This document shows, piece by piece, positions 6,325 through 20,791 of a stretch of 20,791 nt of DNA (its first letter is position 1; every line of letters begins with the position of its first letter). A program made the position numbers and the translations under genes. Origin of the DNA: Candidatus Aminicenantes bacterium UBA4085. Its GTDB lineage: Bacteria; Acidobacteriota; Aminicenantia; Aminicenantales; UBA4085. Location: positions 4,351-25,141 of the forward strand of contig DFYJ01000003.1 of the NCBI GenBank assembly GCA_002383325.1. Direction: 5' to 3'. A model generated the notes under the pieces. It was not told where the DNA came from and did not search any database. It saw only the letters and a program-made list of their open reading frames with translations.

Positions 6325-7740
6325 ATGCATCACACCGCGCTCGACCGCCTGCTCGAGTCCCTGGCCGGAGCCGTCTCCGTGGCCGACGGCCGTCTGGCCG
6401 TAAAGAACGCCGAAGCCCTCCCTTCCCTCATGGACGAGCTCATACGCCGGGCCGTCTTCGGCGATCCCGAGACCAAGGCCGCCGCCCGCTGGATCATCGG
6501 CGAGGCGGCCCAGGCTCTAGGCATCCGGCCCGCTTCCATCCACAGCCTCTACATGGCCATGGGCCAGGGCCGGATCGAGCGCTGGTTCACCGTTCCGGCC
6601 ATCAACCTGCGGGTCCTGGCCTACGACGCGGCCCGGGCCGTCTTCCGGGCCGCCCGCAAGATCGGCGCGGGCGCCTTCATCTTCGAGATCGCCCGCAGCG
6701 AGATCGGCTACACCGAACAGAGACCGTCGGAGTACGTGGCCGCCGTCCTGGCCGCGGCCATCCGCGAGGGCTTCCGGGGACCGGTCTTCATCCAGGGCGA
6801 CCATTTCCAGATCTCGTCCAAGAAATACGCCGCCGCGCCCGAGCCCGAAGTCAAGGCCGTGCGCGACCTGATCGAGGAGGCGATCGCGGCCGGCTTCTAC
6901 AACATCGACATCGACACCTCGACCCTGGTCGACCTGTCCAAGCCGACACTCGACGAGCAGCAGAGGCTGAACTACGAGCTGTGCGGCGACTACCTGAGCT
7001 TCATCCGGAGCCGCGAGCCGGACGGGGTGACGATCTCCGTCGGCGGCGAGATCGGCGAGGTCGGGCAGAAGAACAGCACGCCGGAGGACCTGGACGCCTT
7101 CATGCGGGGCTTCCAGTCCCGCCTGGACGGCCGGACCGGCATCAGCAAGATCAGCATCCAAACCGGCACCAGCCACGGCGGCGTCGTCCTGCCGGACGGC
7201 AGCCTGGCCCAGGTGGCCATCGACTTCGAGGCCCTGCGCGAGGTCAGCCAGCGGGCCCGGGCGGCCTACGGCATGGGCGGCGCCGTCCAACACGGGGCCA
7301 GCACCCTGCCCGAAACGGCTTTCCACAAGTTCGTCGACGTCAAGGCCTGCGAAGTCCACCTGGCCACGGCCTTCCAGACCCTGGTCCTCGACCACCCGGC
7401 CGTACCCGAGAGCCTGAAAACCGAGATGGTTGAGTGGGTCAAGATCCACGCCGCCGACGAGCGCAAGGCCAAGGACTCCGAGGCCCAGTTCATCTACAAG
7501 GCCCGCAAGAAGGCCGTTGGCCCGTTCAAGGAGAAGTTCTGGTCGCTGCCGGAGGGCGTTCGCGCGGCGATCGGGGCCGACCTGGAGAAGACCTTCGCCT
7601 TCCTTTTCGGCCAGCTGGCCATCGAGGGCACCGTCAAAGCGGTGGCCGAGCATATCCGGGCGCCGGAGATCCGCAAGCCGCGGCCGGGCGAGGGCATCCA
7701 GGCCTCAAAGAAGGAAGACGTCTCCGGCCTGGCCGACTGA
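6325..7740 (+). CDS. Long-form class II (zinc) aldolase, fructose/tagatose-bisphosphate aldolase-like
   Basis: A 471-residue protein from ATG 6325, with AAGGAG 7 bases upstream. The class II aldolase core spans residues about 88-345: FTVPAINL, then QGDHFQ (Asp159 catalytic, His160 metal ligand), VGGEIGEVG (acidic ligand region, Glu242/Glu245), QTGTSHGG (His284 ligand) and VQHGAST (His323 ligand). The usual length is about 285-360 residues; this one has roughly 85 extra residues before and 120 after the core (WVKIHAADERKAKDSEAQFI and on). It probably cleaves a ketose bisphosphate or a related sugar phosphate in the cytoplasm, but the extensions make the substrate uncertain. It has its own promoter and is convergent with the ThuA-like gene. 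Confidence 0.85.
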   Translation: MHHTALDRLLESLAGAVSVADGRLAVKNAEALPSLMDELIRRAVFGDPETKAAARWIIGEAAQALGIRPASIHSLYMAMGQGRIERWFTVPAINLRVLAYDAARAVFRAARKIGAGAFIFEIARSEIGYTEQRPSEYVAAVLAAAIREGFRGPVFIQGDHFQISSKKYAAAPEPEVKAVRDLIEEAIAAGFYNIDIDTSTLVDLSKPTLDEQQRLNYELCGDYLSFIRSREPDGVTISVGGEIGEVGQKNSTPEDLDAFMRGFQSRLDGRTGISKISIQTGTSHGGVVLPDGSLAQVAIDFEALREVSQRARAAYGMGGAVQHGASTLPETAFHKFVDVKACEVHLATAFQTLVLDHPAVPESLKTEMVEWVKIHAADERKAKDSEAQFIYKARKKAVGPFKEKFWSLPEGVRAAIGADLEKTFAFLFGQLAIEGTVKAVAEHIRAPEIRKPRPGEGIQASKKEDVSGLAD

Positions 7741-8713: not shown

Positions 8714-8750
8714 GTCAGAAACCTCAAATTTTGAGACCTGACCCCTTTTT
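8714..8750. repeat. Solitary palindromic element of REP/RAYT-associated type
   Basis: A nested palindrome: GTCAG (8714-8718) pairs with CTGAC (8738-8742), and CTCAAA (8723-8728) pairs with TTTGAG (8730-8735) around one base. The minus-strand reading of its end, GGGGTCAGGTCTCAAAATTT, resembles sequences I recall beside Y1-type (IS200/RAYT) transposases in many bacteria. It abuts the stop codon of the DUF1080 gene. No transposase is in the window, so this is a single mobilised copy or relic. The recognition is from memory. Confidence 0.5.
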
Positions 8751-9543
8751 AGAGGCCGCGGATCCAGATGTTGCGGAAGCGGACCGGGTTGCCGTGGTCC
8801 TGCAGGGCAATCGGCAGGTGCTCGGCATGGGCCGCGTAGGGCGGCCGGGCCTTGTGCGCGGTCGGCCCGCTCAGCTCCTGGCCGTTGTGGACCAGGATGC
8901 CGTTCCAGAAGACCGTCATCCTGGCCGGGCTGAGCAGGGCTCCGGCCTTGTCGAAGCGCGGAGCCGTGAAGACGATGTCGTAGGTCTGCCACTCGCCGGG
9001 CTTGCGGCTGGCGTTGACCAGAGGCGGGTACTGGCCGTACAGCGAAGCGGTCATGCCGTCGGCATAGGTCTTGTTCTCGTAGCAGTCCAGGACCTGGACC
9101 TCGTAGATGCCCATCAGGAAAACACCGCTGTTCCCACGCCCCTGGCTCTCGCCCTTGACTTCCACCGGCGAGGCCCACTCCACATGCAGCTGGCAGTCGC
9201 CGAAGCGGGCCCGGGTCCGGATCTCGCCGCCGCCCTGGCTGACTTCCATAAAGCCGTTCTCGACCTTCCACTTGGCCGGTTCGCCTTTGGCCGTCATCCA
9301 CTGCGATAGGTTCGCACCGTCAAACAGGATGACCGCGTCGGATGGCGCGGGCACGGGCAGTCCGGCCGGGCCGGGATCCACCACGGGCGGCATCGGCCGG
9401 CTCTCGTCGTGGACGCCCCATTTCTGAAGCTCGCCCGCCCGCGGATTGACCTGTCCAGCCTGGGACGCGGAGATCGCGGCGGCCCCGGCGATCAGGCCGA
9501 GGATCGAAACGACCGAGAAGACGATTATGGCTCTGTGTCTCAC
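8749..9543 (-). CDS. Exported DUF1080 (3-keto-disaccharide hydrolase type) protein
   Basis: A 264-residue protein starting at GTG 9543-9541. AGGAGG lies 5 bases upstream and decides the start; longer frames are not protein-like. Residues 1-28 are a signal peptide (RHR, hydrophobic core, ISASQA). Residues about 70-264 match the DUF1080/3-keto-glycoside hydrolase jelly roll: ILFDGANLSQW (72-82), WKVENGFMEV (92-101), GRGNSGVFLMG (136-145), YEVQVLD (147-153) and IALQDHGNPVRFRNIWIRGL (245-264). Family members act on 3-oxo-glycosides outside the cytoplasm. It lies 95 bases downstream of the Gfo/Idh/MocA gene and upstream of ThuA, a trio that fits oxidation and C3-keto-driven cleavage. The TAA stop merges into the adjacent repeat element. 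Confidence 0.88.
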   Translation of the reverse strand: MRHRAIIVFSVVSILGLIAGAAAISASQAGQVNPRAGELQKWGVHDESRPMPPVVDPGPAGLPVPAPSDAVILFDGANLSQWMTAKGEPAKWKVENGFMEVSQGGGEIRTRARFGDCQLHVEWASPVEVKGESQGRGNSGVFLMGIYEVQVLDCYENKTYADGMTASLYGQYPPLVNASRKPGEWQTYDIVFTAPRFDKAGALLSPARMTVFWNGILVHNGQELSGPTAHKARPPYAAHAEHLPIALQDHGNPVRFRNIWIRGL

Positions 9544-9586
9544 CCTATCCTCCTGGCGCAGCCAGCCCTGCGGGCCGGAAAAGATC

Positions 9587-9632
9587 AAAAATCGCGGCGG
9601 AATAGAGAGGTGGCCCTTCCCCAACCGCCGCG
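9587..9632 (-). terminator. Candidate intrinsic terminator between the oxidoreductase and DUF1080 genes
   Basis: Reading leftward, an 8-bp G/C stem (9632-9625 with 9600-9593) encloses a 24-base loop and is followed by ATTTTTGATCTTTT, a T-rich run. The loop is long, so termination may be partial, which would set oxidoreductase expression above DUF1080. Confidence 0.4.
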
Positions 9633-9638
9633 GAATCG

Positions 9639-10994
9639 TCAGAGCGACCAGCCCTCGCGGTAGGTCTTGTGAACGAATGGGTTGGCCTCGGGCCGGTTGG
9701 GGAACTCCATCTTGACCGGATCCCACTGCAGGATGGTCTTGCTGTCCTTGAACCGCAGGGCCACGACGCCCAGCAGCATGACCTCGGTCAGGGGCCCCGA
9801 GTAGGTCGGGATGTCGGTCGTCGACTTTTTGCCGGCCTTGATGGCCGCGACCCATTCCTCCATGATGCCCGGTGAGCGCGGGATGGTCTTATCCGGCCGC
9901 TTGTAGTCCTGCATCAGCTTTTCGGGCAGGAGGCGGGGATTCTCGCCGTAGGTCGAGCACATCAGCATGCCCTTGGAGCCGACGAAGAGGCAGCCGCCGC
10001 CGTCGTCACCCATCATCCGGCCGTTGTCCAGCAGCTCGGGTCGGGGCGGGGTCAGGCCGCCGTCGTACCAGATCATCTTGACCGGGCCCATCTTGCCGCG
10101 GGCCGGGAAGGTATAGGTGACAATCTCGGCCTCGGGGTAGGAGTCCTTATTGTACTTGCTGGAGCTGGCCTGCACGGTCAGCGGATGGCCCAGGTTAAGG
10201 GCCCAGAACGGCTGGTCGAGGAGATGGGCGCCCATATCGCCCAGGGCGCCGGTGCCGTAGTCCCACCAGCCGCGCCAAACGAAGTGGCTGAAGGCCGGGT
10301 GGTAGGGCCGCCAGGGAGCGGGCCCCAGCCAGACGTCCCAGTTTAGGCTGGACGGGCAGGACGGAATCTCCTTGGGCGCTTCCACGCCCTGCGGCCAAAT
10401 CGGCCGGTTGGTCCAGACATGGACTTCGGACACTTCGCCGATAGCCCCGTCCGCGATCCACTCGCAGACGAGCCGGGCGCCTTCCTTGGAGTGGCCCTGG
10501 TTGCCCATCTGGGTGACCAGATTGCGCTTCGTGGCCTCCTCGGCCAGCATCCGGGCTTCCTTGATGGTGTGGGTCAGCGGCTTCTGGATGAGGACATGCT
10601 TGCCCCGCTTCATGGCGGCCATGGCGATGACGGCATGGTTGTGGTCGGGGGTCGAGACCGTGATCGCGTCCAGATCCTTGACCTGGTCCAGCATCTTACG
10701 CCAGTCGTTGAACTTGGCGGCCTTCTCGTACATGGCCCGGCGCTCGGGCGAGTGCTGGTCCGATTTCAGGAAGGCGGCCATCTTTTCATCGTCGACGTCG
10801 CAGAGGGCCACGATGTTCTCGGTACTGGCTGCCTGGACGTCCGAAAAGCCCTTGCCGCCCACGGCCACGCCGGCGATGTTCAGCTTGTCGCTCGGGGCGG
10901 TATAGCCCTTGCCGCCGAGGACATGGCGCGGCACGACCATCACGCCGGCGGCCGCGGCCGCCGCCGTACCCAGGAATTCACGGCGCGTTGTCAT
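9639..10994 (-). CDS. Tat-exported Gfo/Idh/MocA family oxidoreductase
   Basis: A 451-residue protein from ATG 10994-10992 with GGAGG six bases upstream. A twin-arginine signal opens it (RREFLG at 4-9, then a run of alanines and an exit near 27). The dinucleotide-binding start is IAGVAVGGKG (40-49), followed by ALCDVDDEK. The conserved EKP motif reads QKPL (GKHVLIQKPLTHT), a variant I recall in Tat-exported members of Planctomycetes-like bacteria. Typical C-terminal barrel features follow: GWWDYGTGALGDMGAHLLDQ and IMEEWVAAIKAGKKSTTDIP. Likely activity is NAD(P)-dependent sugar oxidation or reduction, probably at C3, with tightly bound cofactor because it acts outside the cytoplasm. It heads the leftward trio and has its own promoter. 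Confidence 0.9.
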   Translation of the reverse strand: MTTRREFLGTAAAAAAGVMVVPRHVLGGKGYTAPSDKLNIAGVAVGGKGFSDVQAASTENIVALCDVDDEKMAAFLKSDQHSPERRAMYEKAAKFNDWRKMLDQVKDLDAITVSTPDHNHAVIAMAAMKRGKHVLIQKPLTHTIKEARMLAEEATKRNLVTQMGNQGHSKEGARLVCEWIADGAIGEVSEVHVWTNRPIWPQGVEAPKEIPSCPSSLNWDVWLGPAPWRPYHPAFSHFVWRGWWDYGTGALGDMGAHLLDQPFWALNLGHPLTVQASSSKYNKDSYPEAEIVTYTFPARGKMGPVKMIWYDGGLTPPRPELLDNGRMMGDDGGGCLFVGSKGMLMCSTYGENPRLLPEKLMQDYKRPDKTIPRSPGIMEEWVAAIKAGKKSTTDIPTYSGPLTEVMLLGVVALRFKDSKTILQWDPVKMEFPNRPEANPFVHKTYREGWSL

Positions 10995-11041
10995 GAGTTT
11001 CCTCCCTTGGGGATGTGTTGCGTTCCGATCCGCAGGGGACA

Positions 11042-11071
11042 ACTCTACTGCGGCCCGGCCCCAGTCGTCAA
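11042..11071 (-). promoter_or_regulatory. Promoter of the Gfo/Idh/MocA gene
   Basis: On the minus strand TTGACG (11071-11066) and TAGAGT (11047-11042) are separated by 18 bases, giving a start near 11035 and a leader of about 40 bases. Confidence 0.55.
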
Positions 11072-11117
11072 CCCGCCCGACGGTCCGTCCTCCGCGCAGG
11101 CGGCCGCCTCCCCGTCC

Positions 11118-11147
11118 TTGCTTTCGCCGCTCGGCCCGGGCTATGAT
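11118..11147 (+). promoter_or_regulatory. Promoter of the GH106-type gene
   Basis: TTGCTT (11118-11123) and TATGAT (11142-11147) are separated by 18 bases; the -10 is good and the -35 is weak. It lies back-to-back with the oxidoreductase promoter in a 246-bp divergent region, so a shared regulator site could sit between them. The leader is about 87 bases. Confidence 0.45.
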
Positions 11148-11240
11148 TTCGGGCGGCCGCCGGAGGCCGTTACCGAGCCGCGGGGGGCGGTCACGCCGCC
11201 GGACCCAACGCCGTCGATTCCAACCCAGGGAGGCTTCATC

Positions 11241-14200
11241 ATGTCCCGCCAAGCTATCGCCCGCATCGGCCTGTCGATTGCCATTCTGGGCTTCACGGCG
11301 GCGGCCTGCCGCCCCTCCCCTCCTCCGGCCGAACATCTGGCCCGCGACTTTGCCTCCCCGCCACCCTCCTCCCGGCCCTGGGTCTATTGGTTCTGGCTGA
11401 ACGGCAACATCACCCGCGAGGGCATCACCGCGGACCTCGAGGCTATGAAGACGGCCGGCATCGGCGGCGTCCTGATCATGGAAGTCGACCAAGGCGCTCC
11501 GCAGGGGCCGGTGGCTTTCGGCGGCCCGGAATGGCGCAAGCTCTTCGCCTTCGTCTGCTCCGAAGCGGACCGGCTCGGGCTCGAAGTGAACATGAACAAT
11601 GACGCCGGCTGGTGCGGCAGCGGCGGCCCCTGGGTCAAGCCGGAACACGCCGCCCAGAAGGTCGTCTGGACGGAGACCGCCGCCCGCGGACCGCAGCGCT
11701 TCGAAGGGGCCCTGCCCGCCCCGCCGAAGATCGCGGACTACTACCGCGACATCCGCGTCCTGGCCTTCCCCTCTCTCCCCGCCGGCGCGGCCCGCATCGA
11801 CGGCATCCGCTACAAGGCCATGGAAGCGTCCACCGACTTCCACTATGCGGGCCGCTCCAGTCTGCTTCCGTCGCGAGCGGTCTGGCCCGAGCCGCCGGCC
11901 GGCGAGACGATCCCCCGGAACCGGATTGTGGATCTGACCGATCGGATGGACGAGGCCGGGCGGCTCGTCTGGGACGTTCCCGAGGGCGACTGGACCATCC
12001 TCCGCCTCGGCTCTACCCCGACCGGCATCGTCAATGCCCCGGCCCCCGCTTCCGGGACCGGACTGGACTGCGACAAGATGAGCCTGGAGGCGATCAAGGC
12101 CCACTTCGACGGCTTCCTCGGCCCACTGGCCGACGCCGTGGGAGGGCTGACCGGCAAGTCCTTCGTCTCCGTCCACATCGACAGCTGGGAGACCAACACC
12201 CAGAACTGGACCGGCGACTTCGCCCAAGAGTTCCAGCGCCGCCGCGGCTACGACCTAAGGCCGTTCCTACCGGTTCTGACCGGCCGCTTCGTGGACGGAC
12301 GCGAGGTCTCGGAGCGCTTCCTATGGGATTTCCGCCAGACGATCTCCGAATTGGTCCCGGATCGCTACGCCGCGGGACTGCGCGACCTGGCCGCCCGGCG
12401 CGGCCTGCGGCTCTCCATCGAAGCCTATACCACCTGTCCGACGGATGAGCTGGCCTATGCCGGCCGGGCCGACGAGCCCATGGGCGAGTTCTGGCCGATC
12501 TGGTTCTTCAGCGGCAAGCCCTACGGCTTCGGCTTCACCTGCACCGAGATGGCCTCCGCGGGCCACGTCTACGGCAAAAAGATCATCGGGGCCGAGGCTT
12601 TCACCTCGACCGACGGGGAGCGCTGGCTGCTCCACCCCGCCCTGGTCAAGGAGATAGGCGACTGGGCCTTCGCCGAAGGCATCAACCGCTTCGTCTTCCA
12701 TCGCTACGCCATGCAGCCCTGGATCGGCGTCCGACCGGGCATGGCCATGGGCCCCTGGGGCCTGCACTACGAACGGACCCAGAGCTGGTGGGGCCTTTCG
12801 GGGGCCTGGCATGAGTACCTGGCCCGCTGCCAGCATCTCCTTCGGCAGGGGCTTTTCGTGGCCGATGTGTGCTATCTCACGCCGGAGGGGGCGCCCTTTT
12901 CGATCGGGGCCCAGCAGCGCCTCTTTTCCGGCGCTCCGGACAATCGGGACGAGCCGCGGGAGCGGACCGGCTACAATTACGACCTCTGCCCTCCAGAGGC
13001 CCTTCTGACCCGGATGTCGGTCAAGGACGGTCGCCTGGTCCTTCCGGACGGCATGAGCTACCGCCTGCTCGTCCTGCCCCAATCGGCCACCATGACCCCG
13101 CCCCTCCTGCGCAAGATCAAGGCTCTGCTCGAAGCCGGCGCGACCGTGGTCGGCCCACGACCGGTCCGCTCGCCCGGCCTGGCCGGCTACCCAGAATGTG
13201 ATTGGGAAGTCCGCAAGCTGGCCGGGGAGATCTGGGGAACGGGCGAGCCGCCTGCCGTCCTGACCTCCAGGAGCGTCGGAAAGGGGCGGCTCTACTGGTC
13301 GGCCGCCATCCAGGCCAAGGCCGTCGCCACGGCGACGCCCGGTGAGGCTCTGGGACAGGCCCGTTGGATCTGGCACCCGGAGGGCAACCCGGCCGTTGTC
13401 GTTCCGCCCGGGGTGCGCGCCTTCCGGAAAGTCTTCAGCCTGGAGGAGGGCAAGACGATCGCCTCGGCCCGACTGCTGATGCACGCCGAGGATGCCTTCA
13501 CGGCCTGGCTCAACGGACGCAAGGCCGGCGAGGGGCACAACTTCCACCGCAACGAGAACGCCGAAATCACGGCCTTCCTGAAGCAGGGGGAAAACACCCT
13601 GATCGTCGAAGCCGTCAACCGCGGCGAGAAGCCAAGCCCGGCCGGTCTGATCGGGCGCATCGCCATCCGCTTCACCGACGGGACGAGCCAGGACATCTTT
13701 ACCGACGGGGCCTGGGCCAGCACCGCGGCCGGGCTGGAAGCCGGCAAGTCCGCTCCCCCCGCACAAACGCGCTGGGCCGCCGCTAAGGATGTCGGACCTA
13801 TGGGCATGCCCCCCTGGGGCGAATGGACGCCGACTTACAACGAGGCCGACGTGATTCCCGGAGACGAAATCGCAGCCGCAGTGATGAAGGATCTCGATGT
13901 GCCGCCGGATTTCGCCCACCAAGCGGCGCTCGGCCCGAGCGCCTTGCGCACCACCCATCGATCGGCCCCCGAAGCCGAGATTTACTTTGTAGCCAACAAG
14001 CTGCCGCGGCCCGAGCAAGCCGTCCTGTCCTTCCGGACGGCGGGAAAGCGGCCGGAGATATGGCATCCGGACAGCGGCCGCATTGAACGTCCGGCCGTCT
14101 ATGACGAAGTCGGAGGCATCCCCCGCCTGCCGGTTTCTTTCGAGCCGTCGGGATCGGTGTTCGTAGTCTTCCGAGAGAAGGCCGGGAAGCCGGGCCAAAG

Positions 14201-14996
14201 GCTGAAGGCCGTTGCGCGGGATGGCCGGGAGATCTTCTCCACGGCCCGGATCAGTGTCACGGGACAGGCGCCCGGACCGATGCATTCGGCCTGGGATCCC
14301 GGTCTTGGATTGTCCTTCGATCCGGGAGGACGCGTCGAGATCCTGTCGGACAAGGGAGGCCGTTTCGAGCTGACGCGGGGCGACGGCCGGACGGAGACCG
14401 TCGATGTCCCCGCCGCGGCGCCGCGGCGGGAGATAGAAGGGGCTTGGACCGTTCGCTTCGCCCCCGGCGGCGGCGCTCCGGAGTCGGCGGTCTTCGAGAA
14501 GCTGATGTCGTGGAGCGATCATCCGGACAAGAGCATCGCCTTCTTCTCCGGGGAAGCGGCCTACGTGAAATCGTTCGACCTGGCCGCGGACGAGCTGGCC
14601 AAGCCCAGGCGCCTCACGCTCGACTTAGGCGACGTCCAGGTCATGGCCGCGGTTAAGCTGAACGGGAAGGACCTGGGCATCCTCTGGAAGCCGCCTTACC
14701 GCGTCGACATCACGGAAGCGGCCAAGCCCGGGCGCAACGAGCTGAAGATCCGAGTCGCCAACCTGCCCATCAACCGGCAGATCGGCGATGAATTCCTGCC
14801 TGAGGACAGCGGCCGCAATCCCGACGGCACTCTGAAGGCCTGGCCGCGCTGGCTCCTTGAGGGAAAGCCCAGCCCGACCGGACGGTTCACCTTTTCGTCC
14901 TGGCGGCTGTGGAAGAAGGGCGAGGCCCTGCAGCCGTCCGGTCTGCTTGGGCCCGTCGTCGTGACGGCCGCCTCGGTCTTCAAGATCGGGAGATAG
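11241..14996 (+). CDS. GH106-type alpha-L-rhamnosidase-like lipoprotein
   Basis: A 1251-residue protein from ATG 11241 with AGGGAGG (11227-11233). The signal ends in a plausible lipobox, FTAAAC, with Cys23. The mature N-terminus has the GH106 opening RPWVYWFWLNGNITREGITA, then VLIMEVDQGAP, NMNNDAGWCGSGGPWV and HIDSWETNTQNWTGDF. Candidate catalytic acidic residues are Glu394 (SIEAYTT) and Glu452 (GAEAFTS), by position and conservation only. Residues about 707-831 form an extra jelly-roll-like module (ARWIWHPEG, then AEDAFTAWLNGRKAGEG) like the accessory domain of GH78 rhamnosidases. Residues about 1066-1177 are a GH2-type sugar-binding beta-sandwich (AVKLNGKDLGILWKPPYRVD). It probably cleaves alpha-L-rhamnosides at the cell surface. 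The substrate is unknown. Confidence 0.88.
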   Translation: MSRQAIARIGLSIAILGFTAAACRPSPPPAEHLARDFASPPPSSRPWVYWFWLNGNITREGITADLEAMKTAGIGGVLIMEVDQGAPQGPVAFGGPEWRKLFAFVCSEADRLGLEVNMNNDAGWCGSGGPWVKPEHAAQKVVWTETAARGPQRFEGALPAPPKIADYYRDIRVLAFPSLPAGAARIDGIRYKAMEASTDFHYAGRSSLLPSRAVWPEPPAGETIPRNRIVDLTDRMDEAGRLVWDVPEGDWTILRLGSTPTGIVNAPAPASGTGLDCDKMSLEAIKAHFDGFLGPLADAVGGLTGKSFVSVHIDSWETNTQNWTGDFAQEFQRRRGYDLRPFLPVLTGRFVDGREVSERFLWDFRQTISELVPDRYAAGLRDLAARRGLRLSIEAYTTCPTDELAYAGRADEPMGEFWPIWFFSGKPYGFGFTCTEMASAGHVYGKKIIGAEAFTSTDGERWLLHPALVKEIGDWAFAEGINRFVFHRYAMQPWIGVRPGMAMGPWGLHYERTQSWWGLSGAWHEYLARCQHLLRQGLFVADVCYLTPEGAPFSIGAQQRLFSGAPDNRDEPRERTGYNYDLCPPEALLTRMSVKDGRLVLPDGMSYRLLVLPQSATMTPPLLRKIKALLEAGATVVGPRPVRSPGLAGYPECDWEVRKLAGEIWGTGEPPAVLTSRSVGKGRLYWSAAIQAKAVATATPGEALGQARWIWHPEGNPAVVVPPGVRAFRKVFSLEEGKTIASARLLMHAEDAFTAWLNGRKAGEGHNFHRNENAEITAFLKQGENTLIVEAVNRGEKPSPAGLIGRIAIRFTDGTSQDIFTDGAWASTAAGLEAGKSAPPAQTRWAAAKDVGPMGMPPWGEWTPTYNEADVIPGDEIAAAVMKDLDVPPDFAHQAALGPSALRTTHRSAPEAEIYFVANKLPRPEQAVLSFRTAGKRPEIWHPDSGRIERPAVYDEVGGIPRLPVSFEPSGSVFVVFREKAGKPGQRLKAVARDGREIFSTARISVTGQAPGPMHSAWDPGLGLSFDPGGRVEILSDKGGRFELTRGDGRTETVDVPAAAPRREIEGAWTVRFAPGGGAPESAVFEKLMSWSDHPDKSIAFFSGEAAYVKSFDLAADELAKPRRLTLDLGDVQVMAAVKLNGKDLGILWKPPYRVDITEAAKPGRNELKIRVANLPINRQIGDEFLPEDSGRNPDGTLKAWPRWLLEGKPSPTGRFTFSSWRLWKKGEALQPSGLLGPVVVTAASVFKIGR

Positions 14997-15988: not shown

Positions 15989-17422
15989 TCAGCCCCTCGG
16001 GAACGGCAGGGGCGGGCTCTTGACCTCGGCCCCATCCCAGCAGTAGGTGCACATCGAATCCTTGGGCTTGCCGATGGCCGCCACCAGGTCGCCGAGGTGC
16101 TGGTACTTGAGGGTGGTCAGGTTGAGCCGCTGGCGGATGCGCTCCTCCATGTCGGCATAGGCCCCACTGGCCGGGTCGGCGTAGGTCGCCAGGTCGCTGG
16201 GCGTCTCGCCCTCGATCTCGCGGATGGCCCGCCGGGCGGCCAGGTCCATCTCCGAGCGGGAGATCGAGAAATTGAGGAACTTGCAGCCGTAGACCAGCGG
16301 CGGGCAGGCCGGCCGCATATGGATCTCGCGGGCCCCGAAGTCGTAGAGCCTCTGGATGGTGTCCTTCAGCTGGGTGCCCCGGACGATGGAGTCCTCGCAA
16401 AAGAGAAAGCGCTTGCCCTGAATCAGCTCGCGCACGGGGACCAGCTTCATCCTGGCCACCAGGTCGCGGATGTCCTGGACCTGGGGCATGAAGGAGCGGG
16501 CCCAGGTCGGGGTGTACTTGACGAACGGGCGCCGGAACGGCAGGCCGGCCTCGGCCGCGAAGCCCAGGCCGTGCCCGACCCCGGAATCGGGGATTCCGGC
16601 CACGAAGTCGACGGCGGCCGGGTGGCGCCGGGCCAGGGCCGCGCCGCAGCGGTTGCGTGACCATTCCACGTTGATGCCCTCATAGCTCGAAGCGGGATAG
16701 CCGTAATAGACCCACAGGAAAGCGCAGATCTGGTCGACCGTCCCCGGGGCGCGGCGGACCTCGATCCCGTCGGCCGAGACGAACACGATCTCGCCCGGCC
16801 CCAGGTCGCGCACGACCTCGTAACCGAGGTTGGGGAAGGCGCACGTCTCCTGCGTCACCGCCCAGGCGCCGTCCTTGCCGCCGATGATGATCGGTGTCCG
16901 GCCGTAGCGGTCGCGGGCCGCGTAGAAGCCGTCCTTGGTCAACAGCAGCAGCGAGCAGGAGCCCTCCACGGCGTCCTGCAGGGCCGCGATCCCCTCCTCG
17001 AAGGTGTCGCCCTGGTCGATGAGGGCCGCGGCCAGCTCGGTCGGGTTGATCCCTCCCTGGCTCATCTCGGCGAAGTGGACTCTTCGGCTGCGCAGCGCCC
17101 CGGCCACCAGGTCATCGGCGTTCTTGATGGCTCCGACCGTGACCAGGGCGTACTCGCCCAGGTGGGAGCGGATGAGGAGGGGCTGGTCGTCCGTGTCGCT
17201 GATGACGCCGATGCCGCGGGCCGCCCGCAGGCGGGGGATCTCGGCATCGAACTTGGTCCGGAACTGGGCGTTTTCGATGCTGTGGATAGCTCTGGCGAAA
17301 CCGTCGGCGCGAACGACGGCGATGCCGCCCCGCTTGGTGCCGAGGTGGGAATGGTAGTCCACTCCGTAGTAGAGGTCCGCGATGATGTCCTGCCGGCCGG
17401 CGACTCCGAAGAAGCCTCCCAT
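15989..17422 (-). CDS. PurF-like phosphoribosyltransferase with degenerate glutaminase half
   Basis: A 477-residue protein from ATG 17422-17420, with GAGGAGG just upstream and the preceding stop 10 bases away (same unit). It aligns by motif with amidophosphoribosyltransferase throughout, but the N-terminal nucleophile Cys is replaced by Gly (MGGFFGVAG), and the usual glutamine-binding HNGN and GH(T/V)R segments are lost (TVGAIKN; GVISDTDD). The PRPP half is intact: AGIPDSGVGHGLGF and the PRPP loop CEDSIVRGTQ (342-351). All four cysteines that bind the 4Fe-4S cluster in Bacillus-type PurF have equivalents: Cys233, Cys380, Cys458, Cys461. It therefore cannot use glutamine in the standard way; it may use ammonia, act as a regulator or do something new. 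It resembles a paralogue family I recall from Bacteroidetes and Clostridia. Confidence 0.85.
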   Translation of the reverse strand: MGGFFGVAGRQDIIADLYYGVDYHSHLGTKRGGIAVVRADGFARAIHSIENAQFRTKFDAEIPRLRAARGIGVISDTDDQPLLIRSHLGEYALVTVGAIKNADDLVAGALRSRRVHFAEMSQGGINPTELAAALIDQGDTFEEGIAALQDAVEGSCSLLLLTKDGFYAARDRYGRTPIIIGGKDGAWAVTQETCAFPNLGYEVVRDLGPGEIVFVSADGIEVRRAPGTVDQICAFLWVYYGYPASSYEGINVEWSRNRCGAALARRHPAAVDFVAGIPDSGVGHGLGFAAEAGLPFRRPFVKYTPTWARSFMPQVQDIRDLVARMKLVPVRELIQGKRFLFCEDSIVRGTQLKDTIQRLYDFGAREIHMRPACPPLVYGCKFLNFSISRSEMDLAARRAIREIEGETPSDLATYADPASGAYADMEERIRQRLNLTTLKYQHLGDLVAAIGKPKDSMCTYCWDGAEVKSPPLPFPRG

Positions 17423-17432
17423 CCTGTCCTCC

Positions 17433-20400
17433 TCAGCGGGCCTGGCCGCTCAAGTCCTTGATCCGCAGTTTCCGGAACTCGACCCGCGAGCCGTGGCCGC
17501 AAAACGCGATGCGGCCGCTCATCCGTTTCAGACCGGGATGGTCGCGCCCATCGATGGTCGCCGGCGTCGAGGCCTTTTCGATATCGGCGTCGACGATCAC
17601 CGTCCCGTTCAGCCTGACGGTGACCCGCCGGCCCTGGACCCGAATCTCCTGGCTGTTCCACTCCCCCACCGGCTTCTGGAAGCCGCGCCGGGCGGGAACA
17701 ACGCCATAGATCGAGCCATGGTATTGGTAGGGCTTGAGGGTCTTGTAGATCTCGGCCCCGTCGTCCAGGACCTGGATCTCCATGCCGACGTAAGCCGCAT
17801 CGCCCTGGGGCGGCGTCCGGATGCCGATGCCGTTGTTGGCCCCCGGCGTCAGCTTGAACTCGAAGCGGAAGATGAAGTCGCCGTAGTCTCGGTCCGTGAA
17901 GAGGTTGCCGCCGCTGTCCGGCTTGACCGCGATGGCTCCGTCCTCGACGGCGTAGCCGGCCGTGTCGCCCGCCCAGCCGGCCAGGTCGCGGCCGTTGAAG
18001 AGAGAGACGAATCCGGCCGCCTTCTCCGCCTCGGGCGTCTCCCCGATCGGCGCCGGCTCGGGCATCAGGCCGGTCGTCCCGGAGACGATGCGCCGGATGA
18101 AGACGTTCTTGAAAGTCAGCGGCGTGGAGTGGGCCTGCAGCTCGATCTGCCCGGCCGGGTAGATGGGCTTGTCCCGCTCCCAGTAGTTTTCCATGACCAC
18201 GTCGTCGACGACCAGGACGCCGTTCAATCGGACCGTGACCCGCTCGCCGATCATCTTGATGTAGAAGGTATTCCACTCGCCGATCGGCCGGTCGGCCTTG
18301 ACCAGCGGGTTCTTGGGGTTCTTTTGGTTGTTGTAGAGGCCGCCCGAGCCCTCCGGCCACTGGGCCGGGTCCCAGATCTGGACCTGGGGCGATCCGCGCA
18401 AGTAGATGCCGCTGTCGCCCTTGTCCTGGATCTTCCAGTCCACGAACATCTCGAAGTCATCATAGTCGGATGCGGTGCAGAGGCTGTGGCCCTGACCGTC
18501 GAAGAAAAGCGCCCCGTCGACCACCTTCCAGTGGGCCCGCATGAGGGCATCGACTTCGGCCTGGGCCTTGGCCATCTCTTCGGGCGTCATCTTGGCCCGG
18601 GCCGGCGGATCGGCCACTAGGCCTTTCCAGCCGGTCAGATCCTTGCCGTTGAAGGCGGCTTCGAAGCCGGCCTCCCGCAGCAGGATCGCGGCATAGCTCT
18701 CGGCCTGCTCGCGGTCGTAAGCGCTCTCGACATATGGCAGGGCGCCGCGCACGGCCAGGGCGGCATCGAAGCCTCTCATCCCCGGGTAGCCGGCGGCCGG
18801 CATCACGATCCGGAGGATGGCCGCGGCGGCCTTGGCCTGCACGGCGGGTTGACCTAGGAAGGAAGCGGCCTTGCGCAGCGAGGCTTCGCCGCGCATCCCC
18901 CCCAATCCCGTCACCAACAGGCCCCTCTCATCGTCCTGACCGGCCAGGGTGAAGGCCTTGTCCCACAGCCTCATCCGGTCGGCCGGCGCGGAAGGTTCGC
19001 CCAGCAAACGGGCGATCCCCTGCAGGCCCAGGTAGCGGGTCTTGCGGTCCGACGAGGCCGCCAGCTTGAAGAGCTCGGGCTGAGCCCCGGCGTCCGGCCA
19101 GCTCGACAGGACCGAAAGGGCGGCGGCCCGGGCGGCCGGAGCCTTGCCCGAGACCTCGGCGGCAACGGCCTGAAGGGCCCGCGTCCCGCCGATGCGGGCC
19201 AGGGGGCGGATGAGGTCGGCCCGCTTGTCGTCCTTCGCCTTCTTCAGCGCGGCCAGGACCGCGTCGGCCCGCCGTTCGGGCTCGGCGATCCGCAGGCACG
19301 CCGCGGCCAGGGCGTTCTGGAGCGGCACGACCTGCTTGGGTCCCTCGGCTCTCAGGATCCGGTCGATGAGCCCGGGAATCTCGCCCGGACCCACGGTGGA
19401 CTCCAAGGCGACCAAGGCCGCTTCGCTCACGCCGGGATCAGCCGAGGAGGTCAGCTCCAGAACGGCCGGGCCGGCGCCGGGCGCCCCGCGCTCGGCCAGG
19501 ATCTGGAGGAGAGCCTTCTGGGCCGGGGGAGGGTAGCCTGAGGCCGAAGGGACGAGCCGGGCCAGGACGACGTCGGTCGGCCAGCCCCGGGCGGCGTCGC
19601 GCATCACCACAGCCTGGTCCTCGTCATCCGTGGCAAAGAAAGGCAGCAGCGTCTCAACGGCTTCGATTCCGCGCAAGCGGGCGTAAGCTTCCAGGCAGGC
19701 CAGCCGCAGGACCTTCACGTCGGAGTCCAGACCGGCTCTGAGGAACGGCTCGGCCTCCTTGTCGCCCCGTCGGCCGAACATGCGGGCCGCATCGGCCTGG
19801 GCGGGAACGGGGAAGGACGAAGCCTTCTCGATCCAGCCGGCGGCGTCGAAGCCGGGCAGCTTTTCGACCAGGCCAAGGGCCTTGGCCCTGAAGGCCGGAT
19901 CGGGGGACGCGGCGGCGCTCAGGAGATCGGGCATCGCTTCGCGGCCCAAGGTCGAGACCAGACGGTCGAGGGCGCTCGAGCGGATCTGGCTCTCTCCGGC
20001 GCCGGTCTGGCCGGCGGTCATGGCCCGCAGGATTTCCAAGCCGAGGTCGCGGTGGCCGTTGTCGATCAGGCGCTCCGCATAGCGGAGGTAGCGCGAGGCG
20101 GCGGCCAGTCGATCCGGGTGAGCGGTCTCCAGGGAGAGCGAGTCGAGGGCCGGACGGGCCCCGGGATCGCCGATCTCGGCTAAAGCGGCCAGAATTGGCT
20201 GGCGAAGTTCGGGATCAGCGGTTTCGAGCCGCGCCATGAGGGTCATGACCGCGGCCCGGCTCTTCATAAAGCCCAGCGCCTGAACGAAAGGCCGGACGGC
20301 CGCATCGCCTGGCGCAGCCAGCGCCGCGATCAGGGCCTTTTCAGCCGGCACGCCGCCGATGGTCGCCAGGGCCCGGGAGGCTGGGTCGGCCAACGCGGGC

Positions 20401-20791
20401 ATAGACAGGCAGGCGGCGATCGCGGGGACGGATTCATCCCGCCCGACCAACTGCAGCTGGCTGAGGAGGAAGGCCTTGGCGTCCGCGGCCGGCTGCTCGG
20501 CCAAACCCTTGACCAGGGCGGAGGCCAGAGCCGCCCGCTCAGGCTCGGCTCCGGCCCGCGCCGCGTAGACGGCCGCGCCGTGCAGAGCGTAGCGGACCAG
20601 GCTGTCGTCGGCGGCGCCCGTAGCGGCCAAGCCCCGGCAGGCCTGCAGCAGGCCCGGCTCGCCGAGCGCCAGGAGCTCGGCTGCCGCCTTGTCTCTGGCC
20701 GGCCCGGAGTCAGAGGGGAATTTAGCCAGGATCGAGGCGACCTTGGCGGCAGCATCGGAAGCCTGGAGGGCGGTATCGGATGCTTCGGCTC
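17433..20791 (-). CDS. Very large HEAT-repeat protein with two C-terminal DUF1080 domains, start off window
   Basis: The frame is open from the right edge to the TGA at 17435-17433 (about 1118 codons visible); the N-terminus lies outside. The first ~700 visible residues are HEAT/PBS-lyase-like helical repeats (ALATIGGVPAEKALIAALAA, AALAEIGDPGARPALDSL and many more). Two DUF1080 jelly rolls follow. The first, about 18663-18093, begins AAFNGKDLTGW and has WKVVDGALFF, GDSGIYLRG, VQIWDP. The second, about 18012-17448, begins SLFNGRDLAGW and has NNGIGIRTP, MEIQVLDD. A Pro/Glu-rich linker separates them. DUF1080 proteins act on 3-oxo-glycosides; HEAT repeats usually scaffold. Two copies in one chain suggest a multi-site or scaffolded enzyme. 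The export signal, if any, is not visible. The PurF-like gene follows 10 bases later. Confidence 0.85.
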   Translation of the reverse strand, partial: AEASDTALQASDAAAKVASILAKFPSDSGPARDKAAAELLALGEPGLLQACRGLAATGAADDSLVRYALHGAAVYAARAGAEPERAALASALVKGLAEQPAADAKAFLLSQLQLVGRDESVPAIAACLSMPALADPASRALATIGGVPAEKALIAALAAPGDAAVRPFVQALGFMKSRAAVMTLMARLETADPELRQPILAALAEIGDPGARPALDSLSLETAHPDRLAAASRYLRYAERLIDNGHRDLGLEILRAMTAGQTGAGESQIRSSALDRLVSTLGREAMPDLLSAAASPDPAFRAKALGLVEKLPGFDAAGWIEKASSFPVPAQADAARMFGRRGDKEAEPFLRAGLDSDVKVLRLACLEAYARLRGIEAVETLLPFFATDDEDQAVVMRDAARGWPTDVVLARLVPSASGYPPPAQKALLQILAERGAPGAGPAVLELTSSADPGVSEAALVALESTVGPGEIPGLIDRILRAEGPKQVVPLQNALAAACLRIAEPERRADAVLAALKKAKDDKRADLIRPLARIGGTRALQAVAAEVSGKAPAARAAALSVLSSWPDAGAQPELFKLAASSDRKTRYLGLQGIARLLGEPSAPADRMRLWDKAFTLAGQDDERGLLVTGLGGMRGEASLRKAASFLGQPAVQAKAAAAILRIVMPAAGYPGMRGFDAALAVRGALPYVESAYDREQAESYAAILLREAGFEAAFNGKDLTGWKGLVADPPARAKMTPEEMAKAQAEVDALMRAHWKVVDGALFFDGQGHSLCTASDYDDFEMFVDWKIQDKGDSGIYLRGSPQVQIWDPAQWPEGSGGLYNNQKNPKNPLVKADRPIGEWNTFYIKMIGERVTVRLNGVLVVDDVVMENYWERDKPIYPAGQIELQAHSTPLTFKNVFIRRIVSGTTGLMPEPAPIGETPEAEKAAGFVSLFNGRDLAGWAGDTAGYAVEDGAIAVKPDSGGNLFTDRDYGDFIFRFEFKLTPGANNGIGIRTPPQGDAAYVGMEIQVLDDGAEIYKTLKPYQYHGSIYGVVPARRGFQKPVGEWNSQEIRVQGRRVTVRLNGTVIVDADIEKASTPATIDGRDHPGLKRMSGRIAFCGHGSRVEFRKLRIKDLSGQAR

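Follow-up and report, generated by a model that had tools for sequence, protein, structure and literature searches.

A PurF-related protein family of bacteria and Asgard archaea that lacks the glutamine site and retains the PRPP site and the cluster cysteines

An ammonia-dependent PRPP aminotransferase has been proposed, as an untested idea, for crenarchaeal PurF' (Brown et al., 2011; PMC3261824), and the same source describes E. coli PurF with a replaced Cys1 as still able to use ammonia. Residue-level descriptions of E. coli PurF assign one wall of the ammonia channel to Tyr74 of the glutamine loop (PMC7953260) and list Tyr258, Phe334, Arg342, Lys349 and Arg371 among the PRPP contacts (PMC7953260, PMC7056826), with Lys344 also given as a contact (PMC7953260). 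The kind of bacterial and Asgard family described below was not encountered in a literature search whose coverage mostly excludes subscription journals.

The gene analyzed here lies in a window of 20,791 nucleotides (the whole stretch of DNA under study), where a single open reading frame occupies exactly positions 15989-17422 of the minus strand and encodes a protein of 477 amino acids that starts with MGGFFGV and accordingly has Gly in place of Cys1. The features of the gene as a whole are as follows.

15989..17422, minus strand: whole gene, 477 aa, PurF-like Ntn (former glutaminase) domain followed by a type I phosphoribosyltransferase domain
16748..17422, minus strand: residues 1-225, Ntn-fold domain with a predicted dead glutamine site
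17428..17433, minus strand: AGGAGG, probable ribosome-binding site read from the sequence, one base of which is also part of the stop codon of the preceding gene

The AGGAGG motif is located 5 nt upstream of the ATG and, given that it overlaps the stop of the upstream gene by one base, the two genes may be co-transcribed. The upstream gene (17433-20789, minus strand; at least 1118 aa, with the frame open at the window end) encodes HEAT repeats and two stretches matching 3-keto-disaccharide hydrolase (PF06439); it ends 11 bp before the PurF relative, and this pairing is kept in the close relatives L001 and L210. A second PF06439 protein of 368 aa (8749-9855, minus strand) and a 1525-aa GH106 alpha-L-rhamnosidase-like protein (10419-14996, plus strand) are encoded in the same window, which, given these genes, looks like a polysaccharide-degradation region. 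The window also contains a divergent aldolase relative (6325-7740, plus strand), a class II aldolase-like protein that scores above the Pfam cut-off and far under the listed NCBIfam aldolase cut-offs.

The TIGR01134 (PurF) profile covers residues 4-386 of the protein with 180.5 bits, a score that does not reach the curated cut-off of 350; B. subtilis PurF (1ao0) aligns over residues 3-414 with 171 bits, and the Pfam GATase_7 domain is matched at residues 73-192 with 31.4 bits. An AlphaFold2 model built from 32 rows, 5 of them canonical PurF, has a mean pLDDT of 87.1 and a pTM of 0.88, and its top PDB matches by Z are the PurF proteins of Arabidopsis (41.8) and B. subtilis (41.4), with 427-429 residues aligned at an rmsd of 2.1-2.3 and spanning residues 2-474. 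By alignment and structure comparison, the protein has the PRPP-binding site and the type I phosphoribosyltransferase fold of PurF. The flexible loop (about residues 301-320) is poorly modelled (block pLDDT 57-64), so its shape carries no claim.

For the comparison of individual residues, 165 distinct family members (including the window protein) were aligned with 42 canonical PurF proteins, which come from E. coli K-12 and from carrier genomes. The positions compared map to the window as follows.

17417..17419, minus strand: Gly2, at the position of catalytic Cys1; Gly in 149, Ser in 14 and a gap in 2 of the 165 family rows
17201..17206, minus strand: residues 73-74, site of the gap that corresponds to E. 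coli residues 72-79 (glutamine loop: Arg73, Tyr74, Thr76); gap in 165/165 rows
16724..16726, minus strand: Cys233, cluster-ligand position; 100% of family and canonical rows
16445..16519, minus strand: residues 302-326, flexible loop KYTPTWARSFMPQVQDIRDLVARMK
16370..16399, minus strand: residues 342-351, CEDSIVRGTQ, PRPP loop; D344, S345, V347, R348 and G349 in 100% of the family
16283..16285, minus strand: Cys380, cluster-ligand position; 100% of family rows
16040..16051, minus strand: Cys458-x-x-Cys461, cluster-ligand pair; both in 100% of family rows and 0.88 of canonical rows

The catalytic Cys is present in 0.83 of the 42 canonical rows, the remainder being gaps, and in none of the 163 family rows that bear a letter at position 2, which rejects a mis-annotated start hiding a Cys. 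The glutamine loop, with Arg73, Tyr74 and Thr76 in 42/42 canonical rows, is absent over all eight residues from every family row; in the window protein, the HNGN motif of PurF aligns to TVGAIKN and the GHTRY/glutamine-loop segment is missing. Asn101 and Asp127, which we take to be glutamine-site residues of PurF, are replaced by Val in 0.93 and by Pro in 0.88 of the 165 family rows, respectively. The PRPP site has been preserved almost completely: Tyr239, Arg319, Lys326 and Arg348, the equivalents of Tyr258, Arg342, Lys349 and Arg371, are found in 100% of the 165 rows, as is Ser310 at the position of Thr333, and Phe311, the equivalent of Phe334, is found in 94%. Lys344 is lost in the family, but likewise in most canonical rows. 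Within the flexible loop, Lys302, Arg309, Arg319 and Lys326 are invariant and the YTPTW segment is family-specific; in the PRPP loop, the final Thr of PurF is replaced by Gln (Q351) in 100% of the family. C233 and C380 have cysteine counterparts in the alignment to B. subtilis PurF (1ao0), and all four cluster cysteines (C233, C380, C458 and C461) occur in 165/165 rows, which by sequence places the family in the predicted Fe-S class. Judged from this alignment, the family as a whole, and not just this one gene, combines a lost glutamine site with retained PRPP residues and cluster cysteines. The initial annotation, which had pointed out the Gly at Cys1, the disappearance of the HNGN and GHTR-type segments and the persistence of CEDSIVRGTQ and of the four cysteines, is thus confirmed in its observations, and the strong conservation of the family supports its suggestion that selection has kept the PRPP half and the cluster ligands while glutamine use was dropped.

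The N-terminal domain appears to be under selection as well. Its identity relative to that of the phosphoribosyltransferase domain is 0.84 in the family and 0.78 in canonical PurF, a rough comparison given that the canonical set is more divergent. Altogether 53 columns are conserved for the same residue in both groups, 16 are conserved in both with residues that differ between the groups, and 28 reach a conservation of 0.95 or more in the family while staying under 0.6 in canonical PurF. The latter two sets include D22, Y23, H24, S25, T29, D76 and S86 in the N-domain and W237, E253, H284, T304, T306, W307, S310 and Q351 in the phosphoribosyltransferase domain, where R298 and Y303 are further family-specific invariants. 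Sequence decay was rejected on the basis of these newly fixed residues and of the strong conservation across bacteria and archaea. New residues would hardly become fixed in a domain that had merely lost its function; something is therefore probably bound or sensed by the N-domain.

In a tree of 51 proteins, a stem branch of 2.03 changes per column, supported at 100/100, separates the 27 family rows from three kinds of PurF (standard, planctomycete-type and long Verrucomicrobiota-type), in agreement with the separation from PurF that the initial annotation had proposed to examine by phylogeny. The Lokiarchaeal copies nest within the family. A local tandem duplication of purF was rejected because the family forms one clade, purF-adjacent copies included. 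The long (~600 aa) Verrucomicrobiota-type PurF (L257:3606-5408, minus strand, G479; L331, G961) has an N-terminal Cys and no C-terminal CxxC; the L257 protein scores far under the TIGR01134 cut-off, and the long type is another divergent PurF class.

The protein search yielded at least 7999 candidates at E <= 0.001, a count that may extend beyond the family; the best 120 of these are all at least 69% identical to the window protein and, where named by the sources, are annotated as amidophosphoribosyltransferase. Relatives are encoded in 424 genome stretches, of which the best 80 are all at least 59% identical (best segment) and, judged from their titles, come from metagenome assemblies. When phyla were sampled, the gene was found in 15/149 genomes of Acidobacteriota (the phylum of the nearest relative of the window), 21/148 of Asgard, 16/149 of Spirochaetota, 58/145 of Verrucomicrobiota, 14/149 of Planctomycetota and 1/201 of Chloroflexota, the last being the genome that led to the sample; each sample takes in its starting carrier, the phylum labels are those in the record titles of the starting loci, and Bacteroidota, Firmicutes and Desulfobacterota lie outside the survey. 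Phage carriage was checked by a single scan of viral contigs for two peptide patterns, which gave no confirmed relative. The Asgard copy in G300 (L131) is broken by several stop codons and is either a pseudogene or an assembly error. The family is widespread and forms a large, apparently uncharacterised clade of PurF relatives.

Whether canonical PurF coexists with the family was examined in 80 of 136 carrier genomes (the surveys contributed 125, including 9 of the first 20 carriers, and the other 11 of those 20 make up the rest), which were tested with TIGR01134. A glutamine-type PurF is present in 73/80 carriers, in one of them merely as a contig-end fragment: 60 hold a PurF above the TIGR01134 cut-off and 13 more hold another glutamine-type PurF (3 planctomycete-type proteins under the cut-off, the contig-end fragment in G088, and 9 long Verrucomicrobiota-type proteins detected with P0122). 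Of the relatives with a searchable genome, the two closest (G001 and G165, 88% identical), where we looked for the canonical purF that the initial annotation had suggested seeking, both hold it, so a parallel role is expected in the host of the window. In the remaining 7/80 carriers (G231, G314, G429, G433, G474, G476 and G482), no other PurF was found, a number that equals the chance yield expected of ~90%-complete assemblies. PurD, which consumes phosphoribosylamine, is above its cut-off in 7/7 of these genomes, and PurM in 5/7, with a weaker match in 2, as in the Asgard control G186. The initial annotation had held that its reading would fail if this were the only PurF of a purine prototroph. 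Such a case may exist in G433 (contigs up to 512 kb), where PurD, PurE, PurM and PurN were found and no other PurF; its prototrophy is inferred and, given that G428, with the same gene neighbours, holds a canonical PurF, an assembly gap is possible.

A further sample of 31 genomes from the bacterial family of G482 contained no PurF above the TIGR01134 cut-off, the present family in 26 genomes, the long glutamine-type PurF in 21 (checked by other means in 6 of these), and no genome with neither. Coverage and length served to sort the matches, with GlmS-like N-terminal matches put aside. In 10/31 genomes the present family is the sole match at 1e-18; this is an upper figure, given that the long type scores down to 1e-20 in that search, that the re-test with P0122 covered G476 and G482 of the ten, and that a GlmS-like match occurs in 0/10 of these genomes versus 12 of the other 21. 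The ten may therefore represent a reduced subgroup or assemblies of lower completeness, which makes them weaker evidence for the function favored below.

The clearest genomic association is with purine biosynthesis. In Asgard, canonical purF adjoins the gene in 18/21 carrier genomes, 14 of these pairs being convergent (one, in G300, with the interrupted copy) and 4 co-directional. In the Asgard locus L263 (G186), the order, as named by profiles, is purC-purS-purQ-purL-[gene]-purF, and the gene and purL overlap by 4 bases. Of the best 80 of the 424 loci, 8 carry purF directly beside the gene (5/8 Asgard and 3/72 bacterial); the bacterial cases (L016 Phycisphaerae, L046 Chitinivibrionales, L065 Anaerolineae) differ in gene order and compare with a rough chance expectation of 0.04 for 72 bacterial loci at ~4000 genes per genome, the true value being lower because some loci end early at contig ends. 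In the other 69/72 bacterial loci of this set purF was not found as a neighbour, profile searches named no purine gene in the window, and the neighbour analysis of 141 loci (some of them duplicates of one another) revealed no constant operon beyond Asgard, the naming of purine genes other than purF being limited to those neighbours that were scanned. The genomic tie to purF and purSQL in some lineages is a new observation.

Other neighbours were also considered. Lon, HypF, spermidine synthase and CDF transporters are shared, each in few loci, and were not used as evidence, whereas neighbours guessed by length to be glutamine synthetase, GlmS and glutamate synthase were discarded after the profile search (E <= 1e-40) named none of them. 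The large subunit of carbamoyl-phosphate synthase (CarB) is encoded 1-2 genes away in L046, L063, L209 and L220, which belong to different groups (named by profile in L209 and by similarity in the other three); this neighbour was picked after viewing many clusters and is a hint only. An Rfam scan at gathering scores of 60 short loci, none from Asgard or Acidobacteriota, and of the window detected only tRNAs and one RNase P RNA and so lends no support to a purine, ZTP or thiamine role.

Given that the PRPP chemistry appears to be kept and the glutamine chemistry lost, with a position in purine operons and retention of PurD, the simplest account of the family is an ammonia-using PRPP aminotransferase for purines, a reading that we favor tentatively and at a little under even chances. 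The protein would bind PRPP, and ammonia, or ammonia delivered by a partner, would displace the pyrophosphate, so that PurD would receive 5-phosphoribosylamine made with no hydrolysis of glutamine. The product would be that of PurF, formed from ammonia or a nitrogen source akin to it; a 4Fe-4S cluster would be assembled on the four cysteines, and the enzyme would be catalytic with ammonia as the nitrogen donor. It would work alongside PurF in most hosts and in place of PurF in a few; the presence of PurF in most carriers suggests a conditional or parallel role, for example at high ammonium. The invariant PRPP contacts, the lost glutamine loop, the ammonia use of E. coli PurF with a replaced Cys1, the adjacency to purF and purSQL and the PurD of all seven lone-copy genomes count for this reading. 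Against it count the glutamine-type PurF in 73/80 carriers, which makes the gene rarely the sole source of phosphoribosylamine, the number of lone-copy genomes, which incomplete assemblies alone would yield, the 69/72 bacterial loci in which purF was not found as a neighbour, the lack of a named purine gene in the window, the Lys344 contact that is not kept, and the invariants H284, R298, E253, Y303, T304, W307 and Q351 together with D22, Y23, H24, T29 and D76 of the N-domain. These invariants go beyond what plain loss of the glutaminase requires, which leaves room for another acceptor or a new N-domain ligand. A re-made enzyme, in which the N-domain pocket and the flexible loop with their new fixed residues would serve a different nitrogen donor or acceptor and provide a second cluster-containing, PRPP-dependent entry step linked with purine synthesis, distributed over many bacterial phyla and Asgard under the annotation amidophosphoribosyltransferase, is conceivable if rather unlikely.

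The same columns, several of them in the flexible loop, the PPi and PRPP loops and the N-domain, together with the roughly estimated selection on that domain (0.84 versus 0.78) and the coexistence of canonical PurF in most tested genomes, would also fit a phosphoribosyltransferase for a different amine or nucleophile, with the N-domain rebuilt for the new substrate and a purine-linked product other than phosphoribosylamine. We consider this unlikely: in overall fold and in nearly all checked PRPP contacts the protein matches PurF, the clearest genomic tie is to the purine pathway itself, and PurD is retained in all 7 genomes where another PurF was not detected. A regulatory partner of PurF with weak catalysis or none, acting in a mixed oligomer or as a sensor of PRPP, nucleotides or, via the cluster, redox state, would agree with the proximity of purF in several arrangements, with the dead active site of one domain and with the description of PurF as a tetramer with nucleotide feedback (PMC7056826). 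A mere sensor, however, need not keep all of the checked PRPP-site residues, which are nearly all invariant, and 7/80 carriers show no PurF to regulate, so that such a role seems about as unlikely as a different acceptor; both are nonetheless live alternatives to the favored reading. Accordingly, the other amine and the PRPP or redox sensor put forward in the initial annotation, the interpretation of which is partly supported, are not our first choice, the adjacency to purF and purSQL and the lone-copy genomes with PurD favoring phosphoribosylamine. That the protein is still a PurF using glutamine through another nucleophile, or a product of mere decay, is very hard to credit: the GATase_7 match and the Ser for Cys in 14/165 rows can be cited in its favor, but the glutamine loop is gone from 165/165 rows, Asn101 and Asp127 have largely been replaced, and the strong conservation across bacteria and archaea argues against decay.

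The annotation in use has practical consequences, in that genomes may be assigned glutamine-dependent entry into purine synthesis on account of a gene in which the glutamine site is gone. If the family is an ammonia-dependent phosphoribosylamine synthase, the crenarchaeal PurF' proposal acquires a large counterpart in bacteria and Asgard, one testable in E. coli; if another substrate is used, a purine operon holds a PRPP reaction that is not yet known.

Among the known systems, the B. subtilis-type Fe-S PurF (1ao0/1gph) differs from the present family in having the glutamine site and the loop that the family lacks, and the family forms its own clade (stem 2.03; 180.5 bits versus the TIGR01134 cut-off of 350). 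E. coli PurF has only the first cluster cysteine, whereas the present family has all four. The E. coli C1A/C1S mutants, as described in PMC3261824, resemble the family in that glutamine is not used and the PRPP site is kept, with the mutant using ammonia; in contrast to these mutants, the family is natural and has many more fixed changes. The closest precedent is the crenarchaeal PurF', to which the family is likened here by the description in PMC3261824 only and not by sequence. Like PurF' in that description, the family consists of PurF relatives without the N-terminal Cys, which in most tested carriers occur alongside a true PurF. PurF' is described as adjoining purF and other purine genes; for the present family, purF lies next door in most Asgard carriers and in 3 bacterial loci, further purine genes surround it in L263, and purF was not found beside it in the other 69 bacterial loci, nor was a purine gene named in the window. 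PurF' is reported from Crenarchaeota and often has Ala or Val at the Cys position (PMC3261824), whereas the present family has Gly or Ser and is found in bacteria and Asgard.
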